From Gautieria morchelliformis (Eukaryota; Basidiomycota; Agaricomycetes; Gomphales; Gomphaceae), in contig WHVA01000530.1 of assembly GCA_015179125.1 (NCBI GenBank), forward strand, positions 1-64,000: a stretch of DNA of 64,000 nucleotides, given 5' to 3'. Shown here one piece after another: positions 21,893 to 64,000 of the stretch (positions are counted from its first letter, which is position 1; each line of letters opens with the position of its first letter). Position numbers and translations under genes: made by a program. The notes beneath the pieces are model-generated. The model did not search any database. It was not told the origin of the DNA and worked only from the letters and a program-made list of their open reading frames with translations.

Positions 21893-24106
21893 ATAGATAG
21901 AGCCTCTATGGCATGGCGATGCTGCATTGCAGCCTCATCCCAAATGATGAGCCTGGCCAGTCTCAGCATATCAGCCTGGTCAGAGTTCTTTTTGATGGAG
22001 GAGAGAGAGCCCTCATGGACAGGAATTGGAATTCCAAGCATGCTGTGAGAGGTTGTCCCATTAGTGAGGATAAGTGCAGCCATTGCAGATGAGGCCACAG
22101 CAAGCACAATGAGACTCTCCGCTCTACAGGAGTGGATTAGGGTGTTCCATGTGAATGATTTCCCAGCGCCCCCTGAGCCAGTGACGAAAAACATTTGTCC
22201 GTTAGGTTTCCCCTGAGCATCTATGTCCAGTGCCGACCGTAATATCTGGTCATGCGCAGACCTTTGCCCTCATTCAGCTTGGGAACCTCCTCATCAGCCA
22301 TCTGCCTCTCTTGAACAGGGTCATAGTCCCTCTGCTCAGCTATGAACCTGTTCCAATCAGGACCTCCCACTCGCCTACACCCGAGGCATATCTTTAAAGC
22401 TGCTCAAGGACATTCCATTATGCTGAAGGAGTTTATCCAAGAGAAAGAGGCCAAAATCATAGACCTGATCATCCCTGGCTCCTGGATATTGTGTCTGACT
22501 TGGAGCTGATGTCTGAGATCATCACATATGTGCTCCTTGAAGCGTCCCATAGTCTGTCAGGTTGTGAGGGAATGCAATGACCAAGGATGGTGGCAAAGAA
22601 ATGTCTGAGCTGAGCGCCTGTTTTCATGCCACTGGCTTCCTGGAGACACAACCTCCACTCCTGATCATCCTCCAGAAGTCCCCTGGCAAGACAGGCCTCC
22701 TTGTAAGTAGCACATTGTATGCCATCCACCGTCCTAAGCTCCTCAAAGGATCTGGCCCCCTTGATCACCGTGAGGAGAGTGCGCAAATAAAATCTCTCTC
22801 CTGATTTTGGGCTTGCAAAGTGAAGGTGTCCAATGCTATATCCCCTTTGACGTGGTGTCCATACCCTTTCCTCTTTTTGCCAGGTAAAATGCTCAGGAAA
22901 ATCCACATAGAGCACATCGCGCGCATGAGGGTAGGCAGCATTGGCCTCAAAGTAGGCCATGAGCACTGTCTTTGACCCCTCGACCCTGTTCATGATGGTG
23001 AGCGGATCAGCATCAGGATTGAAAATGACTGATTGCTGGTCTTTTTCATGGACTGGCAGTGCCATGACTGCAGGCACCTGGGTGTGGATTTCCCGCTCCA
23101 GCAACCTCCAACAGGCCTCATGAGCACTGACATAGCGAGCATCCAGGTACTTCTTTATCTCATCATGGTTGACACCAAACTCCATCGTGGTCCGATCGTG
23201 GCCCTTGTATAGATACTTGTGGATATACTTGACGCACCTCACACTGAAGGTGAATTCAAGGTTGATGTGACACCGGAGTTTGAGCAAGAGCAGAGGAGAG
23301 TATGGCACAACCCATCTGTTGTCCAGCATGTCACCTCTGACATTGTGCAGCCTTCCATCATTGCGACGACGATATTTTGGATATCCATCTACATTCACAA
23401 TGGTCTCCTCACAGAATGGCTTTGGGAAGTTTTTCTTGCACTTGCCCTCTTCCATGCAGGGTGCATCTCGATGTCCCTGTCCACAGGGACCATGTGTCAT
23501 CAGCTCACAGACCAACTGGTGGAGCACAGGATGTGTCTCTGGATCAGGGAACTCTTCTGAAACCATAGAATCCACCTCATGTGGATGTTTGACTTTGGAG
23601 TCCCTATTGAACCAGATAAGCAGGTGCATGTGTGGGAGCCCCCTCTTCTGGAATTCAATAGTGTGAACACGAGCGACAGTTTCTCCAAAGATCTTGTCCT
23701 TGACTATCAAGTCAATGAGGTATTTCTTTTTGAGGTGAAACACCCGCGACACCAGGTCAGGTCTGTCCTGAGAAGTTTGTCCAGGGAGCAACTCGGCCAA
23801 TATCTCATCCCACTTTGGATTGGCAGTCATGGTAAGAAACAAATCAGGGGGACCCTTCTTTGTTGTAATGGCTAGGGAGTTCTGGCAGTTTTGATTCATG
23901 TCCCGTGTACTTCCTTGAAATGTCGCAGGCAGAATGACTTTTATGCCCAAGCTGTTTGCATCTCCAATGTCATTGTCCAAGCCTCTATATGAATCTACCA
24001 TCTGGTTATACTGCTCAGCACGCAGAGTGTGTTGATTATCTCTGATCCACCTCAGTCTGCTTTGCTCTGCAGCAGCCCAGGAGTCTACAATGTACTGCTG
24101 GAACAA
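21893..24106 (-). pseudogene. Helitron Rep (HUH) domain plus truncated helicase, copy 2
   Basis: From MFQQYIVDSWAAAEQ at 24106 the frame holds the HUH nuclease motif (HTIEFQKRGLPHMHLLIW), a Cys-His segment (CELMTHGPCGQGHRDAPC), and the catalytic two-tyrosine motif (KYIHKYLYKG). A one-base deletion near 22546 and further changes to 22200 break the frame before the helicase. The helicase restarts at 22194 with Walker A (FVTGSGGAGKSFTWNTLI) and Walker B (LIIWDEAAM), then runs into unrelated sequence after HAIEA. As broken it cannot encode a working transposase. Confidence 0.85.
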
Positions 24107-25884
24107 TTTGCCACCACGCAGGAGTGTTGTAGGTCCTCTCGCTCTCTGGAACAGACGATACGCATGGTACTGTATTTGGGTGACCTGTCTCCGTCTGTTT
24201 GGATTGGCCTGCTGAGCACACTCTGGCTCACGATAAGGAATACCTGGCTGCCATCCAACTCTCCCTTGGGAAAGAGCAAGACATAGTGTAGAGAGGCATA
24301 ATTCGCATTGGTATCCAATACCCTTCTGAAAGGTCCACCTCTGAGCTGGACAATAATATCCCTAGGTTCAGGGTCGATGCCATCTCCAGGAAGAACGACT
24401 GCAATCTCATCTGCAGTTGGGACATTATATCTCCTAGGATCCCTGTGCGCCCTGTTTGTGAGCCTTGCCTGGATGTTACCATTCTGTTCTTGAGCTCTGA
24501 GCCTCTCAGCTGCTTGTTTATATGTGGCGACATGAGGATTGCACAGCAGGAGCATTTCCTGCAAGTCTCCCAGGATAGTTGGAGACAGACGCTCATTATG
24601 ATTTTTCCTCTGTGCCAAAGCCAGTGCAGGATCATATATGTAAAGCTGGGCATACTTTGCATCGTTTTCATTGTCAGGGAGGAGAGAGCCATGGAGATGA
24701 TACAGTTCACCCTGTAGCTTGAGCACATATGGACCATGACCCTCCTGAAGCAAATCTTGGTCAAAGTTGGCCCCCACAGAAGTGAATGCAAATGCAGCAT
24801 TATACTGCCTGATATTCTGGCGAAATCCTTTTGCCTCAGGGTCCTGGCCCTCTAAGAGCTGTTTCAATGGCTGAGGGGGCTCTGGCAGGTCTTCCAGCTG
24901 CACCTTTCCTTCCATACAGCAATCACGAAACCTGGGCCACACATTTGAGGATTTCTGCACGTGTTCTGCCATCCAGTGTAATGCTCCACATTCAGGGCAG
25001 GGAATAACCATGGGACCCAGATCATGACGCTGCACATCTGCCTCAATTATTCTAGTGCGACCAAGTGGAATAGGAGGAGGAGGCTGTGGAGGTGCAGGGA
25101 GTGGCTGAGGCGGCTGAGGAGGAGCAGGGAGTCGCTGAGGAGGCTGAGGAGGTGCAGGGAGTCGCTGAAGAGGCCACAAAAGCGCAGGGAGTAGTGAAGG
25201 CATTGGTCTTATTGCATTGACCTGAGCATGCAATGCTGCCACTCCTGCAGAACCTACTACAGGAGGTCTAGGAGCTGGTTGTAAAGGTGCCTGCCTGTGT
25301 CTTCCCAAGGGCTGTGCTGGGATAGGCTGTATCCCAGCAGCCTGAGCACGCAAATCTGCCACCGCTGTAGAGCCTACCACCGGATGTTCAATTCCAGCTG
25401 CCTCAGCACGCAACTGAGCAATAGCCGCTGAACCTACTACGGGAGCGGGCTGTACAGGGTCTGGCCTATTTCTTCTCAGGGGCTGTAATGGTGGGATAAC
25501 TGCTAACTGTGCACGAAGGGCTGCCACCTGCTCTCCAGGACTGAGATTAGGAGGACGCGATGGTCCTGCAAGCATAGGAGGACGTGATGGCCCTGCAGGC
25601 ATAGGAGGACGTGGTGGCCCCGCAAGCATAGGAGGACGTGATGGCCCGGCCACAGGTTGTTGAAAAGGATCAGCGACATTGCTTCTAGGAGGAGGGTGGG
25701 GGATGGCAAAAGGCTGTGGTGGAGGGGGTGGCTGGTCCTGAGCTCTAACAGCAGCAGCAGCAAGTGCACGTGCTCTCCGATCAGTGGGCGACGTCATATG
25801 ACCCTCCTGCTCCTCCCTCGCCCTTTCACACTCCTGCTGATGATTTCTCTCTGGAGTAGATGGATCCCTGAGAAATGCAGGCAT
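24085..25884 (-). pseudogene. Helitron N-terminal protein, copy 2
   Basis: A 599-codon frame starting MPAFLRDPSTPERN. The first ~280 residues are Pro/Ala-rich with VVGSAAIAQLRA-type repeats and four LAGPSRPP-like units. Next come a Cys motif (IPCPECGALHW ... FRDCCMEGKV), NIRQYNAAFAFTS, GPYVLKLQGELYHLHGSLLP, YAQLYIYDP, RRYNVPTADEIAVVLPGDGI and YASLHYVLLFPKGEL. These are the usual order in fungal Helitron proteins, where they are fused to Rep. A frame change just after FPKGEL (near 24250) separates it from the Rep frame; the last ~45 codons are out of frame and meaningless. The same lesion is present in the copy at 36.8-38.6 kb. Confidence 0.8.
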
Positions 25885-33622: not shown

Positions 33623-36600
33623 TCAAGGAGCTCTAAGTAATACATCTTTATATACAATGTTGGTTGTGTTCAAACCCTCCTCAAGCAAGACCTTCACTTT
33701 GTTCCAGCTTGTTCCACTTGAAACACCAACATACAACTGACCATGTTCAAACACTGGATATCTCAGGTCCAGCCCAACCATACCCAAAGACTGTCCCTGA
33801 GACTTGTTGATGGTCATTGCAAATGCCACACGCACTGGAAACTGTCTCCTCTGCAGCACAAATGGTAATTCTCCCTCTGATGGTGAAATAGTGATCCTGG
33901 GGATGAAAGCAGTATTTCCTGCATGTGGACCTGAGATGATCCTGACCTCCAACACTCCATTCCTCATCCTCACCAACCGCAACCTTGTCCCATTGCATAG
34001 TCCTTGCTTCTTACCCAAATTGTGCAACATCATCAGAGGCACTCCAGGCTTGACTTCCAAGTGAGCAGGAGGAAGACTGCCCATCTCTATGGAATTCAGA
34101 TACTCCACAGGATACTGCTCTGCAAAGTCGGTTTCCTGATAGAATCTGCACAGTGGAAGACCTGAGCATCACCTGGAAACTGCCTCAACACCATGGAATT
34201 GATCTCATTGACCTCAGTATTTCTGGGACAGAGGATGGCCCGCTCTAAAAAATGATTGTCCTGGGCAGGGATTGCATTGCCAATGCCAGGGTATATTTCC
34301 TGGATCAGCTCTGCAATTCCAGGGCCACAAACCATGTTTTGAGGGAGTGAGAAGGTATGATCTAGTGGGAGATCCTTTCCCTGACCCACATTCTGCAGCC
34401 ATTCTGCAAACCGGGCTCTGTCAGGGTCATTTCTCACCCGCATGGTCTCTGTCAGATGGAGGACCTTGATCTTTGGCCACAGATATGACTTCTGAAGGGT
34501 AGCTCCCACGATATCCTCCTTTGAGCCTTTGGGGACAATTGGGAGAGTCTTCTGAAAGTCACCTCCAAAGGCAACCGGATGCCACCAAAGGGTCGGTCAG
34601 GCTGGTCAAGGAAATCCCTCAGTGTCCTGTCAATGGCCTCTATGGCATGGCGATGCTGCATTGCAGCCTCATCCCAGATGATGAGCCTGGCCAGTCTCAG
34701 CATATCAGCCTGGTCAGAGTTCTTTTTGATGGAGGAGAGAGAGCCCTCATGGACAGGAATTGGAATTCCAAGCATGCTGTGAGAGGTTGTCCCATTAGTG
34801 AGGATAAGTGCAGCCATTGCAGATGAGGCTACAGCAAGCACAATGAGATTCTCCGCTATACAGGAGTGGATTAGGGTGTTCCATGTGAATGATTTCCCAG
34901 CACCACCTGAGCCAGTGACGAAAAACATTTGTCCATTAGGTTTCTCCTGAGCATCTATGTCCAGTGCCGACTGTAATATCTGATCATGTGCAGACCTTTG
35001 CCCCTCATTCAGCTTGGGAACCTCCTCATCAGCCTTCTGCCTCTCTTGAACAGGGTCATAGTCCCTCTGCTCAGCTATGAACCTGTTCCCAATCAGGACC
35101 TCCCACTCGCCTATCACCCGAGGCATATCTTTAAAGCTGCTCAAGGACATTCCATTATGCTGAAGGAGTTTATCCAAGAGAAAGAGGCCAAAATCATAGA
35201 CCTTATCATCCCGTGGCTCCTGGATATTGTGTCTGGTTTGGAGCTGATGTCTGAGATCATCACATATGTGCTCCTTGAAGCCGTCCCATAGTCTGTCAGG
35301 TTGTGAGGGAATGCAATGACCAAGGATGGTGGCAAAGAAATGTCTGAGCTGAGCGCCTGTTTTCATGCCACTGGCTTCCTGGAGACACAACCTCCACTCC
35401 TGATCATCCTCCAGAAGTCCCCTGGCAAGACAGGCCTCCTTGTAAGTAGCACATTGTATGCCATCCACCGTCCTAAGCTCCTCAAAGGATCTGGCCCCCT
35501 TGATCACCGTGAGGAGAGTGCGCAAATAAAATCTCTCTCCTGATTTTGGGCTTGCAAAGTGAAGGTGTCCAATGCTATATCCCCTTTGACGTGGTGTCCA
35601 TACCCTTTCCTCTTTTTGCCAGGTAAAATGCTCAGGAAAATCCACATAGAGCACATCGCGCGCATGAGGGTAGGCAGCATTGGCCTCAAAGTAGGCCATG
35701 AGCACTGTCTTTGACCCCTCGACCCTGTTCATGATGGTGAGCGGATCAGCATCAGGATTGAAAATGACTGATTGCTGGTCTTTTTCATGGACTGGCAGTG
35801 CCATGACTGCAGGCACCTGGGTGTGGATTTCCCGCTCCAGCAACCTCCAACAGGCCTCATGAGCACTGACATAGCGAGCATCCAGGTACTTCTTTATCTC
35901 ATCATGGTTGACACCAAACTCCATCGTGGTCCGATCGTGGCCCTTGTATAGATACTTGTGGATATACTTGACGCACCTCACACTGAAGGTGAATTCAAGG
36001 TTGATGTGACACCGGAGTTTGAGCAAGAGCAGAGGAGAGTATGGCACAACCCATCTGTTGTCCAGCATGTCACCTCTGACATTGTGCAGCCTTCCATCAT
36101 TGCGACGACGATATTTTGGATATCCATCTACATTCACAATGGTCTCCTCACAGAATGGCTTTGGGAAGTTTTTCTTGCACTTGCCCTCTTCCATGCAGGG
36201 TGCATCTCGATGTCCCTGTCCACAGGGACCATGTGTCATCAGCTCACAGACCAACTGGTGGAGCACAGGATGTGTCTCTGGATCAGGGAACTCTTCTGAA
36301 ACCATAGAATCCACCTCATGTGGATGTTTGACTTTGGAGTCCCTATTGAACCAGATAAGCAGGTGCATGTGTGGGAGCCCCCTCTTCTGGAATTCAATAG
36401 TGTGAACACGAGCGACAGTTTCTCCAAAGATCTTGTCCTTGACTATCAAGTCAATGAGGTATTTCTTTTTGAGGTGAAACACCCGCGACACCAGGTCAGG
36501 TCTGTCCTGAGAAGTTTGTCCAGGGAGCAACTCGGCCAATATCTCATCCCACTTTGGATTGGCAGTCATGGTAAGAAACAAATCAGGGGGACCCTTCTTT

Positions 36601-36845
36601 GTTGTAATGGCTAGGGAGTTCTGGCAGTTTTGATTCATGTCCCGTGTACTTCCTTGAAATGTCGCAGGCAGAATGACTTTTATGCCCAAGCTGTTTGCAT
36701 CTCCAATGTCATTGTCCAAGCCTCTATATGAATCTACCATCTGGTTATACTGCTCAGCACGCAGAGTGTGTTGATTATCTCTGATCCACCTCAGTCTGCT
36801 TTGCTCTGCAGCAGCCCAGGAGTCTACAATGTACTGCTGGAACAA
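33623..36845 (-). pseudogene. Helitron Rep (HUH, two-Tyr) and SF1 helicase, E1
   Basis: From 36845 a 797-codon frame carries the HUH motif (GLPHMHLLIWF, His159 and His161), the Cys/His cluster, the two-tyrosine motif (KYIHKYLYKG), and the PIF1-like helicase Walker A (GSGGAGKSF) and Walker B (LIIWDEAAMQHRHAIEAIDR). A one-base loss near 34580 ends it after PFGGI. The next frame (34509-34096) continues with VLHLTETMRVRNDPDRARFA and ILCPRNTEVNEIN. Another one-base change near 34150 leads to 34108-33623, with VKPGVPLMMLHNLGKKQGLC, AFAMTINKSQGQSL (motif V) and GQLYVGVSSGTSW (motif VI position). In relatives motif VI reads LSRVTS; here the arginine is missing. It would replicate the element by rolling circle if intact. 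Confidence 0.88.
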
Positions 36846-38635
36846 TTTGCCACCACGCAGGAGTGTTGTAGGTCCTCTCGCTCTCTGGAACAGACGATAC
36901 GCATGGTACTGTATTTGGGTGACCTGTCTCCGTCTGTTTGGATTGGCCTGCTGAGCACACTCTGGCTCACGATAAGGAATACCTGGCTGCCATCCAACTC
37001 TCCCTTGGGAAAGAGCAAGACATAGTGTAGAGAGGCATAATTCGCATTGGTATCCAATACCCTTCTGAAAGGTCCACCTCTGAGCTGGACAATAATATCC
37101 CTAGGTTCAGGGTCGATGCCATCTCCAGGAAGAACGACTGCAATCTCATCTGCAGTTGGGACATTATATCTCCTAGGATCCCTGTGCGCCCTGTTTGTGA
37201 GCCTTGCCTGGATGTTACCATTCTGTTCTTGAGCTCTGAGCCTCTCAGCTGCTTGTTTATATGTGGCGACATGAGGATTGCACAGCAGGAGCATTTCCTG
37301 CAAGTCTCCCATGATAGTTGGAGACAGACGCTCATTACGATTTTTTCTCTTTGCCAAAGCCAGTGCAGGATCATATATGTAAAGCTGGGCATACTTTGGA
37401 TCATCTTCATTGTCAGGGAGGAGAGAGCCATGGAGATGATACAGTTCACCCTGTAGCTTGAGCACATATGGACCACGACCCTCCCGAAGCAAATCTTGGT
37501 CAAAGTCGGCCCCCACAGAAGTGAATGCAAAGGCAGCATTATACTGCCTGATATTCTGGCGAAATCCTTTTGCCTCAGGGTCCTGGCCTTCTAAGAGCTG
37601 TTTCAATGGCTGAGGGGGCTCTGGCAGGTCTTCCAGCTGCACCTTTCCTTCCATACAGCAATCACCAAACCTGGGCCGCACATTTGAGGATTTCTGCAGA
37701 CGTTCTGCCCTCCAGTGTAATGCTCCACAGTCAGGGCAGGGAATAACCATCGGACCCAAATCATGACGCTGCACATCTGCCTCAATTATTCTAGAGCGAC
37801 CAAGTGGAAGAGGAGGAGGAGGTCGCTGAGGACGCTGCCGAGGTACAGGGAGCGGCCGAGGAGGTGCAGGGAGCAGCTGAGGAGGTGCAGGGAGCGGCTG
37901 AGGAGGTTCAGGGAGTGGCTGGGGAGGCTGAGGAGGTGCAGGGAGCGGCTGAGGAGGTGCAGGGAGTCGCTGAAAAGGCCGCAAAAGTGCAGGGAGTAGC
38001 GGCGGCATTGGTCTTATTGCATTGGCCTGAGCACGCAATCCTGCCACTCCTGCAGAACCTACTACAGGAGGTCTAGGAGCTGGTTGTACAGGTGCTTGCC
38101 TGTGTCTTCCCAAGGGCTGTGCTGGGATAGGCTGTATCCCAGCAGCCTGAGCATGCAAATCTGCCACCGCTGTAGAGCCTACCACCGGATGTCTAATTCC
38201 AGCTGCCTGAGCACGCAACTGAGCAATAGCCGCTGAACCTACTATGGGAGCAGGCTGTACAGGGTCTGGCCTATTTCTTCTCAGGGGCTGTAATGGTGGG
38301 ATAACTGCTAACTGTGCACAAAGGGCTGCCACCTGCTCTCCAGGACTGAGATTAGGAGGACGCGATGGTCCTGCAAGCATAGGAGGACGTGATGGCCCGG
38401 CCACAGGTTGTTGAAAAGGATCAGCGACATTGCTTCTAGGAGGAGGGTGGGGGATGGCAAAAGGCTGTGGTGGAGGGGGTGGCTGGTCCTGAGCTCTGAC
38501 AGCAGCAGCAGCAAGTGCACGCGCTCTCTGATCAGTGGGCGACGTCATATGACCCTCCTGCTCCTCCCTCGCCCTTTCACGCTCCTGCTGACAATTTCTC
38601 TCTGGAGTAGATGGATCCCTGAGAAATGCAGGCAT
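36824..38635 (-). pseudogene. Helitron N-terminal protein, E1
   Basis: A 603-codon frame starting MPAFLRDPSTPERNCQQ, with the same order as copy 2: Pro-rich repeats, Cys motif (IPCPDCGALHW ... FGDCCMEGKV), NIRQYNAAFAF, QGELYHLHGSLLP, YAQLYIYDP, PTADEIAVVLPGDGI and LHYVLLFPKGEL. A frame change right after that point (near 36987) separates it from Rep, in the same place as in copy 2. The Pro-rich linker is expanded (about 37,810-37,970; LPAPPQP/LPEPPQP units) and differs between copies. In relatives this region and Rep form one polypeptide. Confidence 0.82.
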
Positions 38636-41334: not shown

Positions 41335-41525
41335 AGAGGGGCTCTTTATTTATGGATTTTGTTGTACGGTTACTCTAGAAGACGCTTTACATTGACTGTT
41401 ATATCGCAAAGGACGACGGTGTGTTGTCCCAAGCCAGAACAGAGAAATCTAGTGCATAGTGTGCATAGTACGGGTGTATGGAAGGTGCAGCTAAAGTGCT
41501 GCGTGAAGGAGGGTCTTTTAACGTG
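41335..41525 (-). repeat. dispersed ~190-bp repeat, copy 1
   Basis: Homologous in the same orientation to 54530-54718 (shared TTTATGGATTTTGTTG.ACGG, TGACTGTTATATCGCA, GAGAAATCTAGTGCATA, GTGCTGCGTGAAGGAGGGTC). On the minus strand both copies keep an open frame with FTLKDPPSRSTLA and SIHPYYA.YALDFS. It could be a solo-LTR or SINE-like piece; the type is not determined. Confidence 0.75.
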
Positions 41526-42120
41526 AACGTCATCCCGTGAAGAGAGCCCGGGCGCGGGCCACTGATCTTCCCCATGAGCCTCTCCATCAGGGAGAACGGC
41601 GCACCAACAGCCTCAGAAGGGTCAAAGACCCATCCATGAATCTGCGGAACAGGCAGCGTCTGGTCGCGATGTCCCAGCAATCCGAGGATGAGAATCTCCC
41701 GCGTAAGCCTATATATCGTGGACCCACTGCGTCCGTTTTCAAGTTGTACCTGATCCTGGCGACCAATAGGTCCTCATCCGCCATTTTTAAGCCATACAGT
41801 AAGCCTTTGCAAAAGATGTGTTGTCTCGAGGAGAAAAACTGGAAAAAAGGCACCGCGATGCGAATTACCACGTTGAGAAAGCTGTGTCCAAGGCGTGTGC
41901 CTTCGAGGATTTCTCGTCCAAGCAAGCGGTAGATGGCGGATTTCAGGGGTTTGAGATTAGGAATTGGGCTGTTGGGGTTGTAAATGGATCGCGCCATTAA
42001 TTGCAGCGATATATAGCAGGGCATTTAAGCAAGCTCGAAGCGTTAATAGCAAAATAGTCACAGCGTGTGTAGGTAACCTTAGTAGTATCCATGTTCAGAC
42101 AAGCCCAAACATGATGGGCA
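41526..42120. other. unrecognised open frame on the minus strand, no known family
   Basis: A minus-strand frame (42024-41587, 145 codons) reads naturally in places (AIYRLLGREILEGTRLGHSF), but no family is recognised and no splice context was found. The rest is anonymous. Confidence 0.25.
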
Positions 42121-51404: not shown

Positions 51405-53473
51405 ATGACCGCGCTCCTGGACGGGGCACGCAACTCGCTCGACTCCGCCGCGGCTTCCACGGCGCTCGCCCGTCCCCATACGCACGCCCGCTCCACCACC
51501 ACCAGCACAACACGCATGCGCAGCCACGCACTCAGCGTCCTTCCCCGCCTTGCACGGCACGACGACGCCCCACACGCACACGCGCACGCGCCGCTGCGCC
51601 GGCCGTTTCGGTGGAGGCTGCTCGGTGTGGGGGTCGTTGTGGTGTGCGTCGTCGTGTGGGCGATGGGCCCCCGGGTGTTGTTGGGGAAGGTGCGGCCAGG
51701 TGAGTGGTGTCTGTCCTGTGTGCTGTCGCGTGCGTGCGTGGCTGATAGAAAGGCAGGGCCGGCGCATTTTGATTTTGAGGAGGAGATGAAAAAGGGGGGC
51801 GGGACATACCCAACCCCGCCAGAGACATACCCACCCACACAGCCAGAACCAGAGAAATACCCAGAGCCAGCCCCCGCCCCGCCGGAGCCAGACACAGACA
51901 GCCCTGCGCGCCCCCCCGGCGCGCCCCCCGCGCCGCCTACCTTCGCCACCGACCCCGACCCCTCCAAATCCGTGCACTGCACCGCGCCCTACGCGCCCTC
52001 CTCCCCGCTCGTGCAGTGGGCGCTCATGCTCGACGCCGGCTCCACCGGCTCGCGCATCCACGTCTACAAGTTCAACAACTGCGGCGCCGCGCCGCAGTAC
52101 GAGTACGAGGTGTTCCGCAAGGTCACGCCGGGGCTGTCGGCGTTTGAGGGGGACGCGGAGGGCGCGGCGAGGAGCTTGGATGAGCTGATGGAGGAGGCAG
52201 TGGGCGCGGTGCCGGAGGGGGCGAGGGGGTGTGCGCCCGTGGCGGTGAGGGCGACGGCGGGGCTGAGGGTGCTGGGGGCGGAGAAGAGCAGCGAGATATT
52301 GAGGGCGGTGCGGGCGAGGCTCGAGACGAGGTACCCGTTCCCCGTGGCGAAGGAGGATGGGGTGACGATCATGGACGGGAAGGACGAGGGTAAGCCGTGC
52401 CGCCATGCACATGCACGCGAGGAGTTGACAACGTATTCGACAGGTGTCTATGCGTGGATCACCGCGAACTACCTCCTCGACACGCTCCGCGCGACGACGC
52501 CGGGCCCGGGCCCGAGCTACGCCGTCCTCGACCTCGGCGGCGCGTCCACCCAGATCGCGTTCGAGCCCGCCGGCGCCGCCACGGACGCGGGCGCGCACGC
52601 GCACCGCGTCGTGTTCGGCGGGCGCACGCACGTGCTGTACCAGCACTCGTACCTCGGGTACGGGCTCATGCATGCGCGGAAGCGCGTGCACCGGCTTGTG
52701 GAGTTTATGTATGAGGCGCGCGGAGGGGAGGGCGGGGGCGAGGAAGAGGGGGAGGTCGCGAACCCGTGTTTGGCGCGGGACACGGCGCGCACGGTCGAGC
52801 TCGAGGACCCGCTGCGCACCGTGCGCATGGTGGGCGCGGACGTGGGCGGGCTCGCGGCGTGCCGCCGCGTCGTGGAGCTCGTCCTCGCGAAGGATGCGTG
52901 CGTGCCCCGCATTCCGTCGCTCGCTGCTTATGCTTACTGAACGTCCTTACTTATATTTTTTCGATTCTGATTACTTTGCCGCACAGGTCCTGCCCCGTTG
53001 CGCCCTGCTCGTTCGCCGGGGTGTACCAGCCCGCGATGCACGACGCGTTCCCCGCGAGCGCGGGGCACGTGCTCCTCCTGTCCTACTTCTACGACCGCCT
53101 CGCGCCGCTCCTCCCCGCGGGCACCACGACGCTCCCCCTCGCCACCATCGCCACGCTCGCCGAGCGCGTCTGCGCCGGCGCCGAGGCGTGGGCCGAGCAC
53201 TGGGGGCCCGGTGCTCCCGCTGACGATGGCGGAAACGCCGCTGAGGACGCGGAGCACGCCGCGGCCGCGATGGAGGAGCTGCGCGGGCGCCCGGAGTACT
53301 GCCTCGACCTCACGTTCATGCACGCGCTGCTCGGCGTCGGGTACGGGCTCGCGCCGGAGCGGGAGGTGCGCATCGCGAAGCAGGTGGCGGGCACGGAGAT
53401 GGGGTGGTGTTTGGGCGCGGCGATTGCGATGGTGGAGGGGGCGGGGGAGGGGTTGGCGGGGTGTGCTGCGTGA
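51405..53473 (+). CDS. GDA1: GDA1/CD39-family nucleoside diphosphatase (Golgi GDPase type)
   Basis: Exons 51405-51699, 51757-52389, 52444-52897 and 52987-53473 keep frame and give 622 residues. A ~70-residue cytosolic tail is followed by one membrane segment (RWRLLGVGVVVVCVVVWAM), a Pro-rich stem (PPETYPPTQPEPEKYPEPAP), then the apyrase conserved regions: ACR1 LDAGSTGSRIHVYKF, ACR2 PVAVRATAGLR, ACR3 DEGVYAWITANYLLD, ACR4 VLDLGGASTQIAFEP and ACR5 YQHSYLGYG. This is the type II topology of yeast Gda1, which converts GDP to GMP in the Golgi lumen so that GDP-mannose import can continue. The C-terminal domain (CSFAGVYQPAMHDAFPASAG, EMGWCLGAAIAMVEG) is complete. Introns are GTGAGT...CAG (57 nt), GTAAGC...CAG (54 nt) and GTGCGT...CAG (89 nt). 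A partial duplicate of its 5' end lies 2.2 kb upstream. Confidence 0.92.
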
Positions 53474-54529
53474 GGCGAGGGGCGTGGGGGGAGTATGTAG
53501 AGGTTTTTTTGTTTTTTTATTGTAGATGGGGGGATATACCGTATATACCGTATATATTTATTTCGTGGGACACACCGGGGGGTGAACATCGTTACTACAG
53601 TGAGTGTTATGTAGTGTAGGTGCGTGTAGAAAGAACGTTAACGACGCGCGCGGAGGCGTGCGTCTGTGCGCCGTTTCCATACCCATTGCCCGCTGTACGC
53701 CCCGCACACCGCACACCGCAAACCCCTCATCATAGGACCTGGAATCCCTATCCCTACCCTGCAGCGGGCCAACTCGGCGACCGTGCTGCGGATATGCCGC
53801 CCGTGCGCAACAGGACGGCGCGGACGTGCGCCACTGGCAGCCACGCCGCGCCGCCATCCCATCGTAGCTCTAAGCGTATCAGGTGTCCACGCTGTCAAGG
53901 CGGGGCGGCATGGGTCTTGAGGGGTGCGTGCATGCGGGGTTTACGGCGCAGGGTGAGTATGGGGAGGGGTGGGGAAGAGCATGAACGCGGGGCCACAAGG
54001 AGGGGCATGGGGTGCAGATTAATCGGACGGCAGCGCATGAGGGCGCCGAGGCCGATATCACTCCTCACGTCGCCCTCGGACGCCACACCGCGCCGCATGC
54101 ATCTTCTTTCATCGTCTTCACGCTCCACGCTTCATCACCAGGATGGGTCGTGGGTTCTTTGTGAGATTGTCCCGTGGAGGGTTTCGTGGGGGTTTTGATG
54201 GCTTCCTGGTTTGGAGGCGGCTGTTTCGCAGAGGGTTGCGTTTGGCTTTTGCGTGAGGGTTGGTTGGCAAGGGGGACGATAAAGGGTGGGATCGGTCGTA
54301 CCCCGCGTTGAACGCACCAAGCAGACCTGACGCCCTCTTCACATGGCGGCCTACCCCAAAGGTACCGTGAGAGGTGTACGTAACTGAAATATTCTGAGCT
54401 TCACGCACGGGCACGGAGTCTTTATAGAACGAGTCTCTCGACCGTGGTTGCTTATGGTCCTATCCCCAGTACGATGGATGAAGTATGGTTTTGGAGATCA
54501 TGTCACAGTGCCGGCCTCTGGGAACGAGT
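53474..54529. other. intergenic, GC-rich, no gene recognised
   Basis: T-rich tract at 53505-53520 and TATATACCGTATATACCGTATATA (53534-53560 region) follow the GDPase stop and may include its 3' end. Open frames at 53620-54414 on both strands resemble no family. Confidence 0.35.
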
Positions 54530-54718
54530 TTATTTTATGGATTTTGTTGGACGGTTACTCTAGACGACGTTTTACAATGACTGTTATATCGCAGAGGACG
54601 ACGGTGTATTGCCCCAAGCCAGAACTAAACATAATAGAGAAATCTAGTGCATACTGTGCATAGTACGGATGTATAGAACGCTGAGCTAAAGTGCTGCGTG
54701 AAGGAGGGTCTTTTAGTG
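54530..54718 (-). repeat. dispersed ~190-bp repeat, copy 2
   Basis: Same-orientation homologue of 41335-41525, with a 12-base insertion (CTAAACATAATA region). It lies 135 bases upstream of the NLR-like gene start, so it may contribute to that promoter. Confidence 0.75.
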
Positions 54719-54853
54719 TGAACGATCCCCACCCTTCATGTACCTTTGGGGTAGGCCGCCACAGGTCGTGTCTTCTTATTCCCACGTTCTCGCAGCAACG
54801 GTTGCCTCGCACTGCCTCCTTTCCCAGAGACCACGCTGACCTCTAACTCCTGC

Positions 54854-57800
54854 ATGGACCATAATCAGCAGATTTCCAAAGCTTCCACTTCATCCAGGCA
54901 TGGCGAAACGCCGCCGATCGTAAAGCCGTCTTTGGTGCCGTCAACGGTAAGCAAAGTTTATTCCGGGACCCTAAATAATCAAGGGAACTGACTATCTCAT
55001 GAATCTTTATGAACAGGCCAAACCACTGTCTACTTCTGGACTTGCCGCAGGGAGAACGGACATCGAATCTACCTCCACGACGCAAACCGATCAGCATCAG
55101 CGGGCCGGGCTTAGGTTGCTTTCACTCGGTAATGTTTTCATGCCTGTTAGCTACTACCTTCTAACTCCCTCAGCAGATGGCGGCGGAATCCGTGGCTTGT
55201 CCGAACTCCTCATACTGCGGGAAATCATGCGACGAATCCAGCTCGAAGAAGGGCGACCCACCGCCCCCCTTCCTTGTGAATATTTCGACCTGATCTGCGG
55301 TACGAGTACAGGCGGGTAAGTTACTTTCTTCTCGATCCCCGTCGTTCACTAATACGTTCCATGCAGACTCATAGCACTCATGCTGGGCCGCCTTCGCCTG
55401 CCCGTAGATAAAGCGATCGATGCCTATGGCACATTTGCCGAGCAAGTCTTCTCTGAGAAGAAACCATTTTGGAAGGACGGAAGGTTCAAGGCTAGCAATT
55501 TGGAGAACGCTATCAAGACAATCATCAAGGAATCAACTGGCGACCCTGAGGCACGCATGTTCGATCCAGGACCGAGCAGAGAAGTGTGCAAAACGTATGT
55601 TCATGTTGCCGCTCGTTCTTGACTTGATACATGGCTGACCGTAGCCCAGTTTCGTCTGCGCGATGCCCGCAAATAACATCACCGCACCCCGCCTCTTTCG
55701 TACGTACAGCGTCGGCAAATACGAATCATTCGACTGCGCGATATGGGAGGCCGCCCGTGCTACGTCTGCCGCTCCTACTTTTTTCAAACCGATTTTCATC
55801 GGCAAACCACCTACGCGTGAACCCTTTGTTGATGCCGGCCTGGGTTGCAACAATCCGATCAAGCAAATCCTCAGAGAAGCAGAACACATCTTTCCGCATC
55901 AACATATTGCTTGCATTGTCAGCATCGGCACTGGACATGTCACCACTGCCAGGCTGCCGGCATCTAGTCTGCTTAATAACATCATACCGTTAAGTGTAGC
56001 TGAGGTATTGAAGAAGATCACCACAGAATGTGAGACAACAGCGGAGGAAACTGAGCAGCGCTTCAGATCTGCACCAAACGTCTACTTCCGGTTCAATGTG
56101 GAGCAGGGAATGGAAAGTGTAACATTAGCAGATTGGGAAAGGTCACCTGAGGTGACAACACAAACATTACGCTATCTTGGGTGGCCACTGGTAGATGAGC
56201 AGGTAACGGCTGCTGCCATTGCTCTCAGGGAGCGCCGGGAAGTGATACCCTCTGCATACCTCAGTGCGTACAATGTGCAATGGGTCCCAGCTGATGACAT
56301 ATGTTGTATGGTAGACACTGTAGGCACAGGCACTGTCAACCGACTATCAGGTAAACAGAGAGCTCGCCGTAGGGCTTGTCCTCTACCAACGCGGAGATTT
56401 ACTGGAAGACATGATATTCTTTCACAACTTGAGGAATACTTCTTCCCAAAACAAACATTCATTGCTAAGGAGCAACAGCACATCTTTGTCTTGTATGGGC
56501 TTGGTGGGGTGGGAAAAACACAGATTGCTTTGTCATTCATTGATGAGTTTTATCAATGGTGTTGTAGTTTATCCAGGGCTGTTATGTATTGACTAATCTG
56601 TTTTATATTTAGCTTTTGGAGGGTGTATTATGTGGATGCAAGTAGTGTGTCCACTATAGAATGTGGCCTAGAGGACATTGCTCGGGATGAGGGCATTGGT
56701 GAGACTGCTGAGGATGCTCTTCTATGGCTTTCTGGACAACACCAAGGGTGGCTACTCTTGCTGGACAATGCTGATGATGGAGATATAAAGCTTCAAAAGT
56801 ACTTCCCAGCATGCAAGCATGGAAACATCATTGTGACAAGTCGCATTGTAAAGTGGTGTGCACATGCACTCCGCTCCAACTGTCATGTATCAGGCATGGA
56901 GGCTGCGGAGGCAATTGATTTGCTCCTCATGTTCTCTACAGCCAAAGATTGCACAAAGGATCATGGCTTGGCAACTCAGATTGCTGAAGAACTTGGTTAT
57001 CTTGCCCTGGCCATTGTACAAGCAGGTGCCTATATCTCAAATGGATGCAGCTTCAATGGATATCTGGATATTCTTCAGAAGGAGCGGGCTCAGCTAATGA
57101 GCAAGCACTCTGACATGATAGATGATTATCAGTTGGCAGTCTATGCAACATGGGAAATTAGCTTTAAAGAGCTAAGTCTCATAGCACAAAGGCTGCTACA
57201 CCTGTGTGCATTTCTCCATTATAGTAGTATTTCCAAGAGCATCTTTAAAAAGGCAGCGCTCATGGATCCAGATGAGGATGATATAAAACAGTTTCTGGAT
57301 AAGTTTCAAACTGCAGATGGTAGCTGGAGTGACTTTAAATTTCAGGAGGTCATTAATGAATTAACTTCTTACTCATTGATCACCACTAATGAGGGAGATT
57401 ATACATTTTTCCTTCATCCACTGGTACATGCTTGGGCTGGAGAAAGGTTGGAGGAGGAAGAGCAGGAGCATAACCAAGGGTGCATGATGCAGATATTAGC
57501 ACTTTCTATCCCATTGGGAAAGAGTACAGCAGACCACACCTTTAGGAGAACTCTTCTCTCTCATATTAATGAGCGACATAGAAAAGGTGCAAATGCAGAC
57601 ATGGCAAATAAATTTGCACAAGTGTTTCATGAAGCAGGGCGATGGATGGATGCTCGAGAGCTGTATGTTAAGGTCATGGAGACAAGGAAGATGGACCTTG
57701 GTGAGGAACATCCCAACACATTGACTGCCATGGGCAGCCTTGCTGCAACCTATCGGAGTCTGGGCCAGTGGAAGGATGCTCAGGGGCTGCAGATTAAAGT

Positions 57801-60015
57801 CGTGGAGGGAAGCAACAGGGTCCTTGGTGAGGAGCATCCTGACACACTGACTGCCATCACCAACCTTGCTACAACCTATCGGAGGCAGGGCAAGTGGAAG
57901 GATGCGCAGGAGCTGCAGATTAAAGTTGTGGAGGCAAGCAAGAGGGTCCTTGGTGAGGAGCATCCTGACACACTGACTGCCATGGGCCGCCTTGCTTCAA
58001 CCTATCGGAGTCTGGGCCAGTTGAAGGATGCTCAGGAGCTGGAGATGAAAGTCATGGAGGGAAGCAAGAGGGTCCTTGGTGAGGACCATCCTGACACACT
58101 GGCTGCCATGGGCAGCCTTGCTGCAACCTATCGGAGGCTGGGCCAGTGGAAGGATGCTCAGGAGCTGCAGATTGAAGTTATGGAGGCAAGCAAGAGGGTC
58201 CTTGGTGAGGAGCATCCTGACACACTGAATACCATGAACCGCCTTGCTACAATCCATTGGAATCTGGGCCAGTGGAAGGATGCTCAGGAGCTGGAGATTA
58301 AAGTCATGGAGGGAAGCAAGAGGGTCCTTGGTCAGGAACATCCTAGCACGTTGATTACCATAGGCAACCTTGCTGCAACCTATCGGAGTCTGGGCCAGTG
58401 GAAGGATGCTCAGGAGCTGGAGATTAAAGTCATGGAGGCAAGGAAGAGGGTCCTGGGTGAGGAACATCCTCACACACTGGCCGCCATCACCAACCTTGCT
58501 GAAACCTATTGGAGTCTGGGCCAGTGGAAGGTTGCTCAGGAGCTGCAGACTAAAGTCATGGAGGCAAGCAAGAGGGTCCTTGGTGAGGAGCATCCCAACA
58601 CACTGACCGCCATGGCCAGCCTTGCTGCAACCTATCGGAGTCGAGGCCAGTGGAAGGATGCTCAGGAGCTGGAGATTAAAGTCATGGAGGCAAGGAAGAG
58701 GGTCCTGGGTGAGGAACATCCTAACACACTGACCGCCATCACCAACCTTGCTGCAACCTATTGGAGTCTGGGCCAGTGGAAGGATGCTCAGGAGCTGCAG
58801 ATTAAAGTCATGGATGCAAGCAAGAGGGTCCTTGGTGAGGAGCATCCTGACACACTGACTGCCATGGGAAGCCTTGCTACAACCTATCAGAGTCTGGGTC
58901 AGTGGAAGGATGCTCAGGAGCTGGATATTAAAGTCATGGAGGCAAGCAAGAGGGTCCTTGGTGAGGAGCATCCTGACACACTGACTGCCACAGGAAACCT
59001 TGCTGCAACCTATCGGAGTCTGGGCCAGTGGAAGGATGCACAGGAGCTGCAGATTAAAGTCGTGGAGGAAAGCAAGAGGGTCCTTGGTGAGGAGCATCCT
59101 GACACACTGACTGCCATGGGCAGCCTTGCTACAACCTATTGGAGCCTGGGCCAGTGGAAGGATGCTCAGGAGCTGCAGATTAAAGTCATGGAGGCAAGCA
59201 AGACAGTCCTTGATGAGGAACATCCCTACACATTGACTGCCATGGGTGGCCTTGCTGCAACCTATCGGAGTCTGGGCCAGTGGAAGGATGCTCAGGAGCT
59301 GGAGATTAAAGTCATGGAGGGAAGCAAGCGGATCCTTGGTGAGGACCATCCCAACACACTGACCGCCATCACCAACCTTGCTACAACCTATTGGAGTCTG
59401 GGCCAGTGGAAGGATGCTCAGGCGCTGCAGATTAAAGTCATGGATGCAAGCAAGAGGGTCCTTGGTGAGGAGCATCCTGACACACTGACTGCCATGAGAA
59501 GCCTTGCTACAACCTATCGGAGTCTGGGCCAGTGGAAGGATGCTCAGGAGCTGGATATTAAAGTCATGGAAGCAAGCAAGAGGGTCCTTGGTGAGGAGCA
59601 TCCTGACACACTGACTGCCACGGGAAACCTTGCTGCAACCTATCGGAGTCTGGGCCAGTGGAAGGATGCACAGGAGCTGCAGATTAAAGTCGTGGAGGAA
59701 AGCAAGAGGGTCCTTGGTGAGGAGCATCCTGACACACTGACTGCCATGGGCAGCCTTGCTACAACCTATCAGAGTCTGGGCCAGTGGAAGGATGCTCAGG
59801 AGCTGCAGATTAAAGTCATGGAGGCAAGCAAGAGGGTCCTGGGTGAGGACCATCCCAAAACACTGATGGCCATGGGCAGCCTTGCTGCAACCTATCGGAG
59901 TCTGGGCCAGTGGAAGGATGCTCAGGAGCTGGAGGTTCAAGTCATAGAGGTAAGAAAGAGGGTCCTTGGTGAGGAGCATCCCAACATACTGACACAAGCC
60001 CACACCTATGGATAG
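54854..60015 (+). CDS. NLR-like protein: patatin phospholipase, NB-ARC, TPR
   Basis: Exons 54854-54946, 55017-55128, 55177-55315, 55367-55594, 55650-56558 and 56613-60015 keep frame and give 1,627 residues. Residues ~64-290 are a patatin domain: oxyanion loop LSLDGGGIRG (69-75), nucleophile GTSTGG (Ser112) and catalytic Asp252 in VDAGLGCNNP, all present. Residues ~430-750 are NB-ARC: P-loop GLGGVGKTQ (474-482), Walker B LLLLDNADD (541-549), sensor NIIVTSR, LGYLALAIVQAGAYI, and HPLVHAW near the end of the winged-helix part. From residue 856 there are 18 full 42-residue TPR units plus a partial one. This is the architecture of fungal NOD-like receptors such as Neurospora PLP-1, which triggers cell death on non-self recognition. 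By analogy, ligand binding by the TPRs would release NB-ARC oligomerisation and activate the lipase against membranes. The ligand is unknown. No partner gene of the SEC9 type is seen nearby. Confidence 0.93.
57697..60012 (+). repeat. 126-bp TPR-coding repeats, 18 full units plus partial
   Basis: Units begin exactly every 126 bases from 57697 (LGEEHPDTLTAMGSLA, TTYRSLGQWKDAQELQIKVM, EASKRV). Every unit is 42 codons, with no indel over 2.27 kb. Units 9-13 (58705-59334) and 14-18 (59335-59964) form a duplicated five-unit block; units 11 and 16 encode identical peptides. The last unit breaks off at LGEEHPNILTQAHTYG and the stop. Confidence 0.95.
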
Positions 60016-61109
60016 ACACAGGCTAGGCTTTCCCCACTACTGGTGGCATAGAAGAATTTTTAGTTTGAAACACTGTTTAAAAGACAGCTAAGATTTTTAT
60101 AAAAATGGTAGGGTCTATAATGTAACAAAACACTTTCACCAAATTTAGTCTTTTCTCAATCCCAAGCAAGTGTGATAACATTGCAAAAAATAAGTGCAAA
60201 AAGCTATAAGAAACACTTGTCAAAGTTATAGTCTTAAAAAGAAAGAGAGAGTAAATGTTATAAAAACATTGGAACATGCCACTACATTCACTATAACAAT
60301 GTGGATGGTCACATGATCTGATCAAGGGACATGACATGGCGAGTTGACCCTGCATGTGTCTCGACCATATCTCCTATTTACTTTCAACCCCAAATTCCCT
60401 TTCCACCATTATGCTTTACACTTTGTCACATCCTGCAGACATGTCATACCTATCCCTCAGCTCTTATACACATCCCAGCCGCTCCATCTGTAAATTCCTT
60501 TGTTCCAGCTTTATAACACACAAGGAACCCCAGTGTTTTTCTAACTAGTTAAATACCTTCATCTGTATGCTACATTCGATAGTGAAAAACATTCACCTGA
60601 TCTTTCGAACTACAATCTATCAATACTATAGTAAGATGCATATACCTTGATTCATCAGACTTCACTCGATTTGACTTCTACTAGAAGTTTAAATCACATC
60701 TCTATTAGTTTTACTCTTGACACTATAACTAACAAGAGTAAATATATTTATCTGCTTCCACAACACTAGCAAACTCACCAAGAAATGTGGTAACTAAAAT
60801 TTAAACCTCCATGGACAATGAGGATGATGAAGAAAGCCAGGGTCAGAGGCCTCCTACCAAGAAACACTGACAATTTAAGCTTGGCGTGCATGAGGGGCTT
60901 CAAGCATCCCAGAAAACCCCCGGTTCCGCCACTGGTATTCCAACCCCCCATCAGCTCAACCCGTACCCCGGCGCCAAGCCATTGGTGCTGGCTGAGGGCA
61001 TTCCCTATGAACTGAGTGCTGAACCCCAGAACCGAGTTATCCTGGCGATGGTGGTGGAGGTGGTGATGACTCTGACCCTGAGCATAATTGTCAGGGGAAC
61101 ACCAATCAC
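60016..61109. other. 3' flank of the NLR-like gene, A/T-rich, no gene recognised
   Basis: A/T-rich spacer to about 60790, then a plus-strand stretch (60880-61090) with natural-looking codons (PPVPPLVFQPPISSTRTPAP in one frame) that could be the upstream part of the decayed gypsy gag region, but no family match is certain. Confidence 0.35.
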
Positions 61110-61306
61110 ACACTGTGTATGATCGCACTGTGCATGATCGCACTGTGCATGATCGCACTGTGCATGATCACACTGTGCATGATCGCACTGTGCATGATCA
61201 CACTGTGGATGATCGCACTGTGCATCGTCGCACTGTGGATGATCGCACTGTGGATGGTCATACTGTGCATCGTCGCACTGTGCATTGTCACACACTGCAT
61301 CATCAC
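61110..61306 (+). repeat. 15-bp minisatellite, about 13 units
   Basis: Units of CATGATCGCACTGTG and variants (GGATGATCGCACTGT, CATCGTCGCACTGTG, CATGATCACACTGTG). All frames stay open because the unit is a multiple of three; the Cys-Asp-His-Ala-rich frame is not a gene. Confidence 0.9.
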
Positions 61307-61739
61307 AGCGTGTTGTTGGTGGCCCTGAGCTTCTCCTAGCCTTTAGCATCCTTCTGTCTTGTGTTCTGTTTATTTCCCTTCCTGTTCTGGCCCCTTCCGA
61401 CATCATTCCTTCCTTATCTGTCCAGCCCTGGTATCGCTGGCATGATTGCTTATGTAACTCGGGCATTCGGTGATCGGGCTAGCATGCCCACGTTTGCTTA
61501 TAGTTGTAGTTAGGTGGTGAAGGGGTTCCTTAGAGTTTTCTCTTTGGACCCCCCTTCGCCAGGTATGTCTATGTCCTGTATATAGTTCTCTATCTCACTT
61601 TGGATCCCCCTTTGCCAGTTCGCCGCTTGAGTGTAGAGCGTCTGCCCAGGTTGCCCTTATAATAATTCTGATCCTGAAGTAGCAGACCTGAGACCTAATC
61701 CCAACCTGAATGCAGCGGCAAGTGGCGAGTAACAGGTTG
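61307..61739. other. intergenic, no gene recognised
   Basis: Two related lines near 61528-61620 (TTTCTCTTTGGACCCCCCTTCGCC and TCTCACTTTGGATCCCCCTTTGCC, about 58 bases apart) show a short duplication. The rest is anonymous and may be the untranslated leader of the decayed retroelement. Confidence 0.35.
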
Positions 61740-62998: not shown

Positions 62999-63512
62999 TG
63001 TTGCGCCCCCAATGAACTATCATCCTAAGTATTTCAGATCACGAGTCGGAAGTCGGAAAGTACCAAACTAAACAGAAGTTGCAACTTGAGTCGGAAGGTG
63101 GAAAGGTGGAAGGCGGAGAGACAAAGGTCTTGCAAAACTCGCTGTGCTAAGAACAGGAGATAGAGCAAAGGAAATCACATATCGAAGGCGATTATCTGAT
63201 TGCAGAATAACGAGCATACGTGAGGGGCTTTTATACAAAGAGCTGAGACAACATGTAATGGTGTAGTACTAAGCAAATTCCGGAGGGAGCAGAAGTCGGA
63301 TAGACATATGGGGTAACTAACTAATTGGGAACAAGGGGAATACAAGGGGGGTGCAGGGTAGGGTAGAACAATGGCAAAAGAACAAGGGGTCAGAATGTAT
63401 ATCTGACATAAAGAAACAACGAGACTCCAACGGGGGCCAGACATATGGTCTTGCTGTGCTGCAAGTTGAGTCTGGTGGGTCTGAGTAATAGAGTTGAAAG
63501 AACAAGGTGTCA
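62999..63512 (+). repeat. LTR-like repeat, copy 2
   Basis: Starts TGTTGCGCCCCCAATGAACT and ends AAGAACAAGGTGTCA. Homologous (inverted) to 27593-28149; both are preceded by GGCTTCAACTTATA. Its position after a gypsy gag remnant suggests the 3' LTR of an internally deleted element. Confidence 0.55.
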
Positions 63513-64000
63513 AGATTGGTTTTTAGGCGTTAATATCATGTATTAGTGAACACAGCGAATGCCTGAATAACTTGTGTGAATAAGTATGCCGTTCGGCGAA
63601 GAGGATGAACCAATAAATGTTCGGAAGATAAGAGGGCTGCCCGAACGGAGCTCGCCCTATCTACAGTCATAGCGAAATAGCCCGTGGCACTTGACGATGT
63701 AACATGCAAGGTGTCACGGAAAGGTTGTCTAAGTGGCGACAATCCTTTCACCGGCGAAGGCACTCCTTTGGAGCCCTTCGCTGACAGCAGAGAAAATAAT
63801 TCGAAGGCTAAGGTAATGAAGATGAAGTATGAGAACTCACCAGTGATGCCTAAGTCTTCTTCTGGTCGAAGATAGCAATCTAAAGGAGAAGGCTCCAGAC
63901 GATGGTCACAGCGAGGTCAAGTTTGCACAAGATGGACGTATGATAATTGAACTGAAGAATATACATGCAAATGTAAACTACTTATACTGAATACTTGTAT
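63513..64000. other. no gene recognised to the window edge
   Basis: Short frames at 63536-63763 (minus) and 63684-63875 (plus) overlap each other and match nothing known. Confidence 0.3.

Follow-up and report, generated by a model that had tools for sequence, protein, structure and literature searches.

A patatin/NB-ARC/TPR receptor gene of Gautieria morchelliformis: a large family, repeat turnover and an inverted upstream segment

We analyzed a stretch of 64,000 nucleotides (nt) from the basidiomycete Gautieria morchelliformis (contig WHVA01000530.1, positions 1 to 64,000 of the forward strand; hereafter the window), which carries a gene for a protein with a patatin domain, an NB-ARC domain, and an array of tetratricopeptide repeats (TPR). 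Judged by its sequence, the gene is a fungal NOD-like receptor (NLR) with the architecture of Neurospora PLP-1, and as such a further example of a known receptor type; new here are the unusual size of its family and an inversion upstream of the gene. Overall, we consider it quite probable that the gene encodes an NLR composed of a TPR sensor, an NB-ARC switch, and a patatin phospholipase, that it is part of a diversifying family, and that its promoter-proximal segment has been inverted. The gene and its parts are located as follows:

54854..60015 (+): patatin/NB-ARC/TPR NLR gene, six exons, 1,627 amino acids (aa) (spliced model, Pfam, paralogue comparison)
54854..54946 (+): exon 1 (splice sites compared with paralogues)
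55017..55128 (+): exon 2 (spliced model)
55177..55315 (+): exon 3, containing GTSTGG with Ser112 (spliced model)
55367..55594 (+): exon 4 (spliced model)
55650..56558 (+): exon 5, containing VDAG with Asp252 and the P-loop (spliced model)
56613..60015 (+): exon 6, comprising the remaining NB-ARC domain, DUF7779, and the TPR array (spliced model)
55119..55866 (+): patatin domain, aa 66–263, across introns 2–4 (Pfam PF01734, E=4e-24; PDB matches)
56467..57045 (+): NB-ARC domain, aa 464–638 (Pfam, motifs, profile of the nucleotide-binding domain, NBD)
56497–56520 (+): P-loop (motif)
56752–56769 (+): Walker B-like motif (motif)
57160..57462 (+): DUF7779, aa 677–777 (Pfam PF25000)

An earlier note on this DNA, made from the letters alone, had proposed six exons in frame over 1,627 codons, and our spliced model reproduces the same exons and length. 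The coding sequence comprises 4,884 nt, i.e., 1,627 aa plus the stop, with zero internal stops, and all five introns (48–70 nt) are bounded by GT..AG. When the exon boundaries were carried over by alignment to 17 colinear paralogues, 15 of them showed an accepted donor (GT or GC) and an AG acceptor for every one of the five introns. As the same note had stated, the catalytic residues of the patatin domain, the P-loop, and Walker B are intact: DGGGIRG (69–75), GTS112TGG, VDAG (D252), the P-loop GLGGVGK480T, and the Walker B-like LLLLDN (541–546) were all found in the translated model. The protein thus described combines an N-terminal patatin domain with a Ser-Asp dyad, an NB-ARC domain with P-loop and Walker B, and a C-terminal TPR array, which are the features of the PLP-1-type architecture.

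Patatin, DUF7779, and TPR_10 (18 stretches) scored above the Pfam cut-offs in the window protein, and the TPR_10 match reached an E-value of 3e-229 for the whole protein, far beyond chance. A point against the assignment is that the NB-ARC domain of the window stayed under the curated cut-off (21.2 and 21.3 vs. 23.5 bits); the domain exceeded it in all five paralogues tested (24.5–29.4 bits), which were five of the seven paralogues with open frames. Among solved structures, residues 1–879 matched CapV of the cyclic oligonucleotide-based antiphage signaling system (CBASS; E 8e-17, the closest patatin domain by sequence), patatin-17, and iPLA2beta. In the CapV alignment, GTSTGG stands opposite GTSIGG and DAG opposite DGG. 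CapV is a phospholipase that serves defence by cell death; unlike the window protein, it is cGAMP-activated, according to the name of its structure entry, and it is not known to have NB-ARC or TPR. A profile built from six NBDs matched AfsR and the plant proteins Roq1 and RPP13-like protein 4, the latter of which we take to be ZAR1.

By this architecture, the C-terminal TPR superhelix would act as the sensor, with a ligand groove formed by positions 2, 5, 9, 12, and 13 of helix A, and the NB-ARC domain would serve as an ATP-dependent oligomerisation switch. The N-terminal patatin domain would be a phospholipase (Ser112/Asp252) that damages membranes and kills the cell on receptor assembly. A role in non-self-triggered cell death is suggested by analogy with PLP-1, whose cell death needs both patatin activity and the P-loop (PMC12881547). 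The likeness to PLP-1 is one of architecture and concerns the order patatin, NB-ARC, TPR and the intact lipase and P-loop motifs; unlike PLP-1, which recognises SEC-9, the window type occurs in about 80 copies, and the upstream region of the window gene is inverted. It is nearly as probable as its converse that the receptor senses microbes or hosts, in xenorecognition or symbiosis, rather than non-self of the same species. Overexpression of NLRs in symbiosis in Laccaria and differential expression of NLR or patatin-domain genes in Gigaspora and Suillus mycorrhiza, both from a review (PMC10197012), point in this direction, whereas PLP-1, a patatin/NB-ARC/TPR NLR with functional tests, controls allorecognition via SEC-9 (PMC12881547).

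The gene does not stand alone; it is one among about 80–100 relatives, several of which are broken. In the 122-Mb assembly (1,113 contigs), Pfam Patatin yielded 129 stretches at E ≤ 0.001, which merged into 90 loci when stretches less than 1.5 kb apart were joined; 12 of the 129 lie below the Pfam cut-off, and a few loci rest on one weak stretch. A related NBD follows downstream, on the same strand and within 3 kb, at 81 of the 90 patatin loci. Counting NBDs gave 97 loci, with 111 of 149 candidates scored; for this count, 98 of 147 rows were taken by hand, 49 being omitted as loci already listed, and one merge led to 97. Within the window, tblastn (E 1e-3) revealed no other NLR pieces outside the gene. 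In the survey of Dyrka et al. (2014; PMC4986451), species with patatin NLRs have 1.7 patatin domains on average, so that the 81 patatin–NBD loci counted here are an unusual expansion by comparison. Fungi with many NLRs of any kind have been described before, with up to 602 in Fibularhizoctonia (PMC10197012). A patatin-NLR expansion of this kind was not found described in a literature search by titles and the beginnings of abstracts, in which few subscription papers were covered.

We examined 24 paralogue loci, i.e., the first 20 of the 97-locus list in sort order and four chosen as closest. Seven of them were not used further because they were incomplete, rearranged, or too divergent (five by a preset list, and L023 for an unmatched exon 1). 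Among the 17 colinear paralogues, seven are open from the start through all detected TPR units (9, 12, 19, 9, 10, 15, and 24 units), three lose only the last one or two units, and seven have a stop ahead of the TPR array, including C970 and C792, the two closest relatives of the window gene. These broken-frame calls depend on exon boundaries transferred by alignment; tblastn shows frame changes in several of them. Where TPR units were detected at all, their number ranged from 3 to 24 per locus.

Some further observations on the family concern single loci. Similarity of C113 to the window starts only at 56039, and no other N-terminal effector was seen by eye among the upstream open reading frames listed; rather than as a domain swap, we treated this locus as a truncation, which is a working assignment and not proven. 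Two NLR copies with identical scores lie in opposite orientation about 16 kb apart (C670:587167-588093 on the plus strand and C670:604127-605053 on the minus strand), suggesting a recent inverted duplication. L012 and L018, NBD relatives with about 50% aa identity, have TPR units upstream of the NBD too, possibly reflecting another architecture or an adjacent gene. Lastly, a repeat of about 490 bp at window positions 63507-63995 recurs in the NLR loci L013, L024, L026, and L027 at 79–88% identity (4 of the 24 loci, searched on one strand).

The window gene differs from its relatives upstream of the coding sequence, where a segment conserved in the family is inverted:

54344..54739 (−): upstream segment conserved in the family, inverted relative to the gene (genome search and base-level alignment)
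54344..54365 (+): left 22-bp inverted-repeat arm, derived copy (repeat search, alignment)
54740..54761 (+): right 22-bp inverted-repeat arm, ancestral position (counterpart in C792, 3 mismatches)

A genome search with window positions 54330-54775 returned 35 pieces, many of which precede paralogues, on the strand opposite to the gene. One piece is the window itself, 24 are opposite at 22 loci, nine without a gene start within 3 kb were excluded, and the remaining one (C792:32046-32080) falls outside the inverted segment. All paralogue loci that have such a piece no more than 3 kb from the start of a gene or gene fragment (22 of 22) carry the segment in the orientation opposite to that of the window; the anchors for C417, C278, and C194 were placed by hand, C278 being a rearranged fragment and not a clean gene start, and the piece at C130:230655 sits 2.2 kb from its gene. 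Alignment with C970, C792, C460, and C450 showed the left flank (53930-54343; 83–85%) and the gene-proximal flank (90–93%) to be colinear, and between them a reversed match of 87–92% to the same four paralogues, which starts at 54344-54388, depending on the paralogue, and extends to 54735. Position and conservation suggest that the segment is the promoter. It contains a TATA-like motif (window, TATAAAG; the four aligned paralogues, TATAGAG), which was not used as evidence. Elsewhere in the window (41345-41536) lies an isolated piece with 86% identity to the NLR upstream segment.

As the upstream segment is reversed, expression of the window copy is doubtful. Transcription would probably be changed or lost with the reading frame left intact, and the copy may be switched off or misregulated. 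The description of the gene as a complete receptor in the earlier note accordingly holds for the protein, with its frame, motifs, and domains intact, and is uncertain with regard to expression, given about 400 bp of inverted conserved upstream sequence. This raises the possibility, which we regard as plausible while leaning against it, that the inversion silences the copy transcriptionally and that an intact coding sequence is on its way to a pseudogene, retained as a donor of repeat units. Only the window carries the inversion among the loci compared, the identical repeat arms make a recent event possible, and C970, C792, and another five colinear paralogues have stops ahead of the TPR array (under the transferred model). 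However, the frame of the window gene is open across 1,627 codons, and its lineage-specific ratio of nonsynonymous to synonymous changes (dN/dS) is 0.49 in the NBD and 0.74 in the patatin domain with no stop gained, from few changes (17 and 10). The segment could also work bidirectionally.

Regarding the sensor, the C-terminal part of the protein is occupied by an in-register repeat array:

57613..57738 (+): degenerate first TPR unit, the orthologue of the first unit in the paralogues (anchor motifs)
57739..60006 (+): 18 TPR units of 126 bp each (Tandem Repeats Finder, TRF; anchor motifs)
58754..59139 (+): 386-nt block with a second copy at +630 nt (59384-59769; 6 mismatches, 147 nt identical)

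TRF called the array at 57643-59993 with period 126, 18.7 copies, and 0% indels, and 19 anchor motifs are uniformly 42 aa apart, i.e., one degenerate unit and 18 good units; both agree with the eighteen 126-bp units counted before. That these units differ at few positions applies more to DNA, with a mean pairwise identity of 88.3% (77.8–100), and was generous at the protein level (77.1%, 57–100). Compared to their own consensus, the 18 units reach a mean aa identity of 85.4%, so that the outcome under the high-internal-conservation (HiC) criterion of Dyrka et al. (>85% over ≥100 aa) depends on whether its measure is this value or the pairwise 77.1%; it may be either. A 668-aa open frame runs antisense over the array (57997-60003, minus strand); its Pfam matches are weak and probably spurious, and it is a by-product of the repeat.

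Comparison with paralogues supports the earlier proposal that the array evolves by repeat turnover. Together with its degenerate unit the window has 19 units, vs. 8 in C970, 7 in C792, 15 in C450, and 24 in C460, the closest paralogues. The first unit of the window is orthologous to theirs (94% in C970, 91% in C792, 95% in C450, and 88% in C460), and so is the last unit in C792 (99%) and C450 (91%). The core units are not collinear and have no positional counterpart in these four paralogues, and their best partners are often found inside the window array itself (10/15, 11/16, 12/17, and 7/9). Two results weigh against this picture: the last unit lacks a counterpart in C970 (64%) and C460 (68%), and core units of the window array are on average scarcely more similar to each other (89.1%) than to those of the four closest arrays (87.7–89.1%). 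By the latter result, turnover is family-wide and not confined to the window array. Along the NBD, C450 is mostly 92–98% identical to the window, drops to 83–88% between 56802 and 57400, and then returns to about 93%, a mosaic that looks like a conversion tract. Varying unit number, non-collinear cores, the copied 386-nt block, and the C450 mosaic are the marks of concerted evolution found among the paralogues compared. Arrays would thus diversify as units are gained and lost, blocks are copied, and paralogues exchange sequence, with orthology persisting in the first unit and in the N-terminal part. Similar within-gene repeats and variable repeat numbers were described for NLRs with TPR, ankyrin (ANK), or WD repeats by Dyrka et al. 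(PMC4986451), and concerted repeat evolution within and between paralogues is shared with the Podospora hnwd family (HET-D, HET-E, HET-R; PMC4986451), which, unlike the family here with TPR and patatin, has WD repeats and, in five members, a HET domain.

We further asked where the units vary. After dropping 29 of 288 units with an internal stop or a score ≤30, 259 units remained. The groove was taken as canonical TPR positions 2, 5, 9, 12, and 13 of helix A, a mapping to the concave face that rests on TPR numbering; positions 2, 5, 9, 12, 13, 33, and 34 are reported as the most variable, concave-face TPR positions by Magliery and Regan (PMC1261162). In the pooled units, variability among the 42 positions is greatest at canonical positions 2, 9, 12, and 13 (chance 4.5e-5); variable sites on the concave TPR face are likewise described for the TPR NLRs of Dyrka et al. 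(PMC4986451). By parsimony counts, dN/dS is 1.34 at the groove vs. 0.68 at the rest in the near clade (Fisher p 0.004), and 1.00 vs. 0.56 across all loci (Fisher p 4e-5). Structural codons are constrained (dN/dS 0.15–0.25 at unit positions 17, 21, and 37), and in each of the 23 arrays that have at least 5 core units, the proportion of nonsynonymous differences (pN) is higher at the groove than at the other positions.

Taken together, these data make diversifying selection at the groove likely, though not proven, and several results weigh against it. Groove position 5 ranks only eighth in the pooled units, and the window's own array is led by unit positions 35, 41, and 42, with position 5 (unit 41) as the only one of the five groove positions in its top four. 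None of the single codons with dN > dS is Bonferroni-significant, the pooled test of the groove against neutrality gives only p=0.02, and counts obtained by parsimony from units that recombine lack independence. Furthermore, several arrays, the window's among them (0.248 vs. 0.104), also have an elevated synonymous proportion (pS) at groove codons. In 3 of 23 arrays (L009, L011, L021), pN/pS at the groove does not exceed that of the remaining positions, and in L032 it is undefined. Alternatively, the similarity within the array could result passively from unequal crossing-over and gene conversion, with relaxed constraint at the groove and no role in recognition. The absence of individually significant codons, the raised pS, and the lead of other positions in the window array would fit this explanation, as would the general variability of groove positions in TPRs (PMC1261162). 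We nevertheless consider it unlikely, given the raised groove pN in every one of the 23 arrays, the constrained structural codons, and the near-clade groove dN/dS above 1.

Returning to the upstream inversion, its boundaries hold information on how it arose. The 22-bp inverted repeats bounding the segment are perfect. Genome-wide, both arms within 3 mismatches occur in the window only; C792 has a single arm, on the gene-proximal side. In ten other paralogue upstream regions, the best arm matches have 8–11 mismatches and are no better than shuffled arms (best 6, average 9.2), so none of the 11 upstream regions checked has two arms. A single ancestral arm with an extra inverted copy is a pattern discussed for inversions by staggered break or template switch (PMC7584159), and because the single-arm C792 fits such an event, the 22-bp repeats are more likely a scar of the inversion than a switch. 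On this reading, an in-place inversion of the promoter-proximal segment (about 0.4 kb) would have taken place, in which a staggered break or a template switch probably produced the repeats. A miniature inverted-repeat transposable element (MITE) with 22-bp terminal repeats was considered and discarded, since what lies between the repeats is upstream sequence of the family itself in reversed orientation, with both flanks colinear with the paralogues. Misassembly is an unlikely cause on general grounds, since ordinary reads are longer than a repeat of 22 bp.

A pre-existing invertible switch is not supported, as none of the 11 upstream regions checked in relatives has repeats on both sides. Promoter flips as on/off control, with the coding sequence kept intact, a state possibly reversible between nuclei or strains, and a subset of about 80 receptors expressed, are highly improbable. 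A literature search on promoter inversion together with fungi and NLRs returned a single paper, which concerns human gut bacteria. That the repeats flank a reversible promoter switch in the manner of phase variation is scarcely credible, given that two arms are found in the window only, that C792 has just the gene-side arm, that the ten other upstream regions do no better than shuffled arms, and that a staggered break or template switch with duplication fits the pattern.

Regarding the neighbourhood of the gene, two Helitron-like elements lie on the minus strand at window positions 22469-25884 and 34452-38635, with Helitron_like_N in both and a PIF1 helicase in the second. A match to GDA1/CD39 nucleoside phosphatases precedes the NLR gene (51405-52940, plus strand), and a 15-bp minisatellite follows downstream of it (61109-61307, with 11.7 copies at 61111-61285).

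With about 80 loci of graded divergence, arrays of 3 to 24 units, open and broken copies, and one copy with an inverted putative promoter segment, this family represents a natural series for the diversification of NLR sensors. The same series may serve to follow how NLR copies become switched off, and the inversion predicts that the window copy would be expressed less than its colinear relatives.

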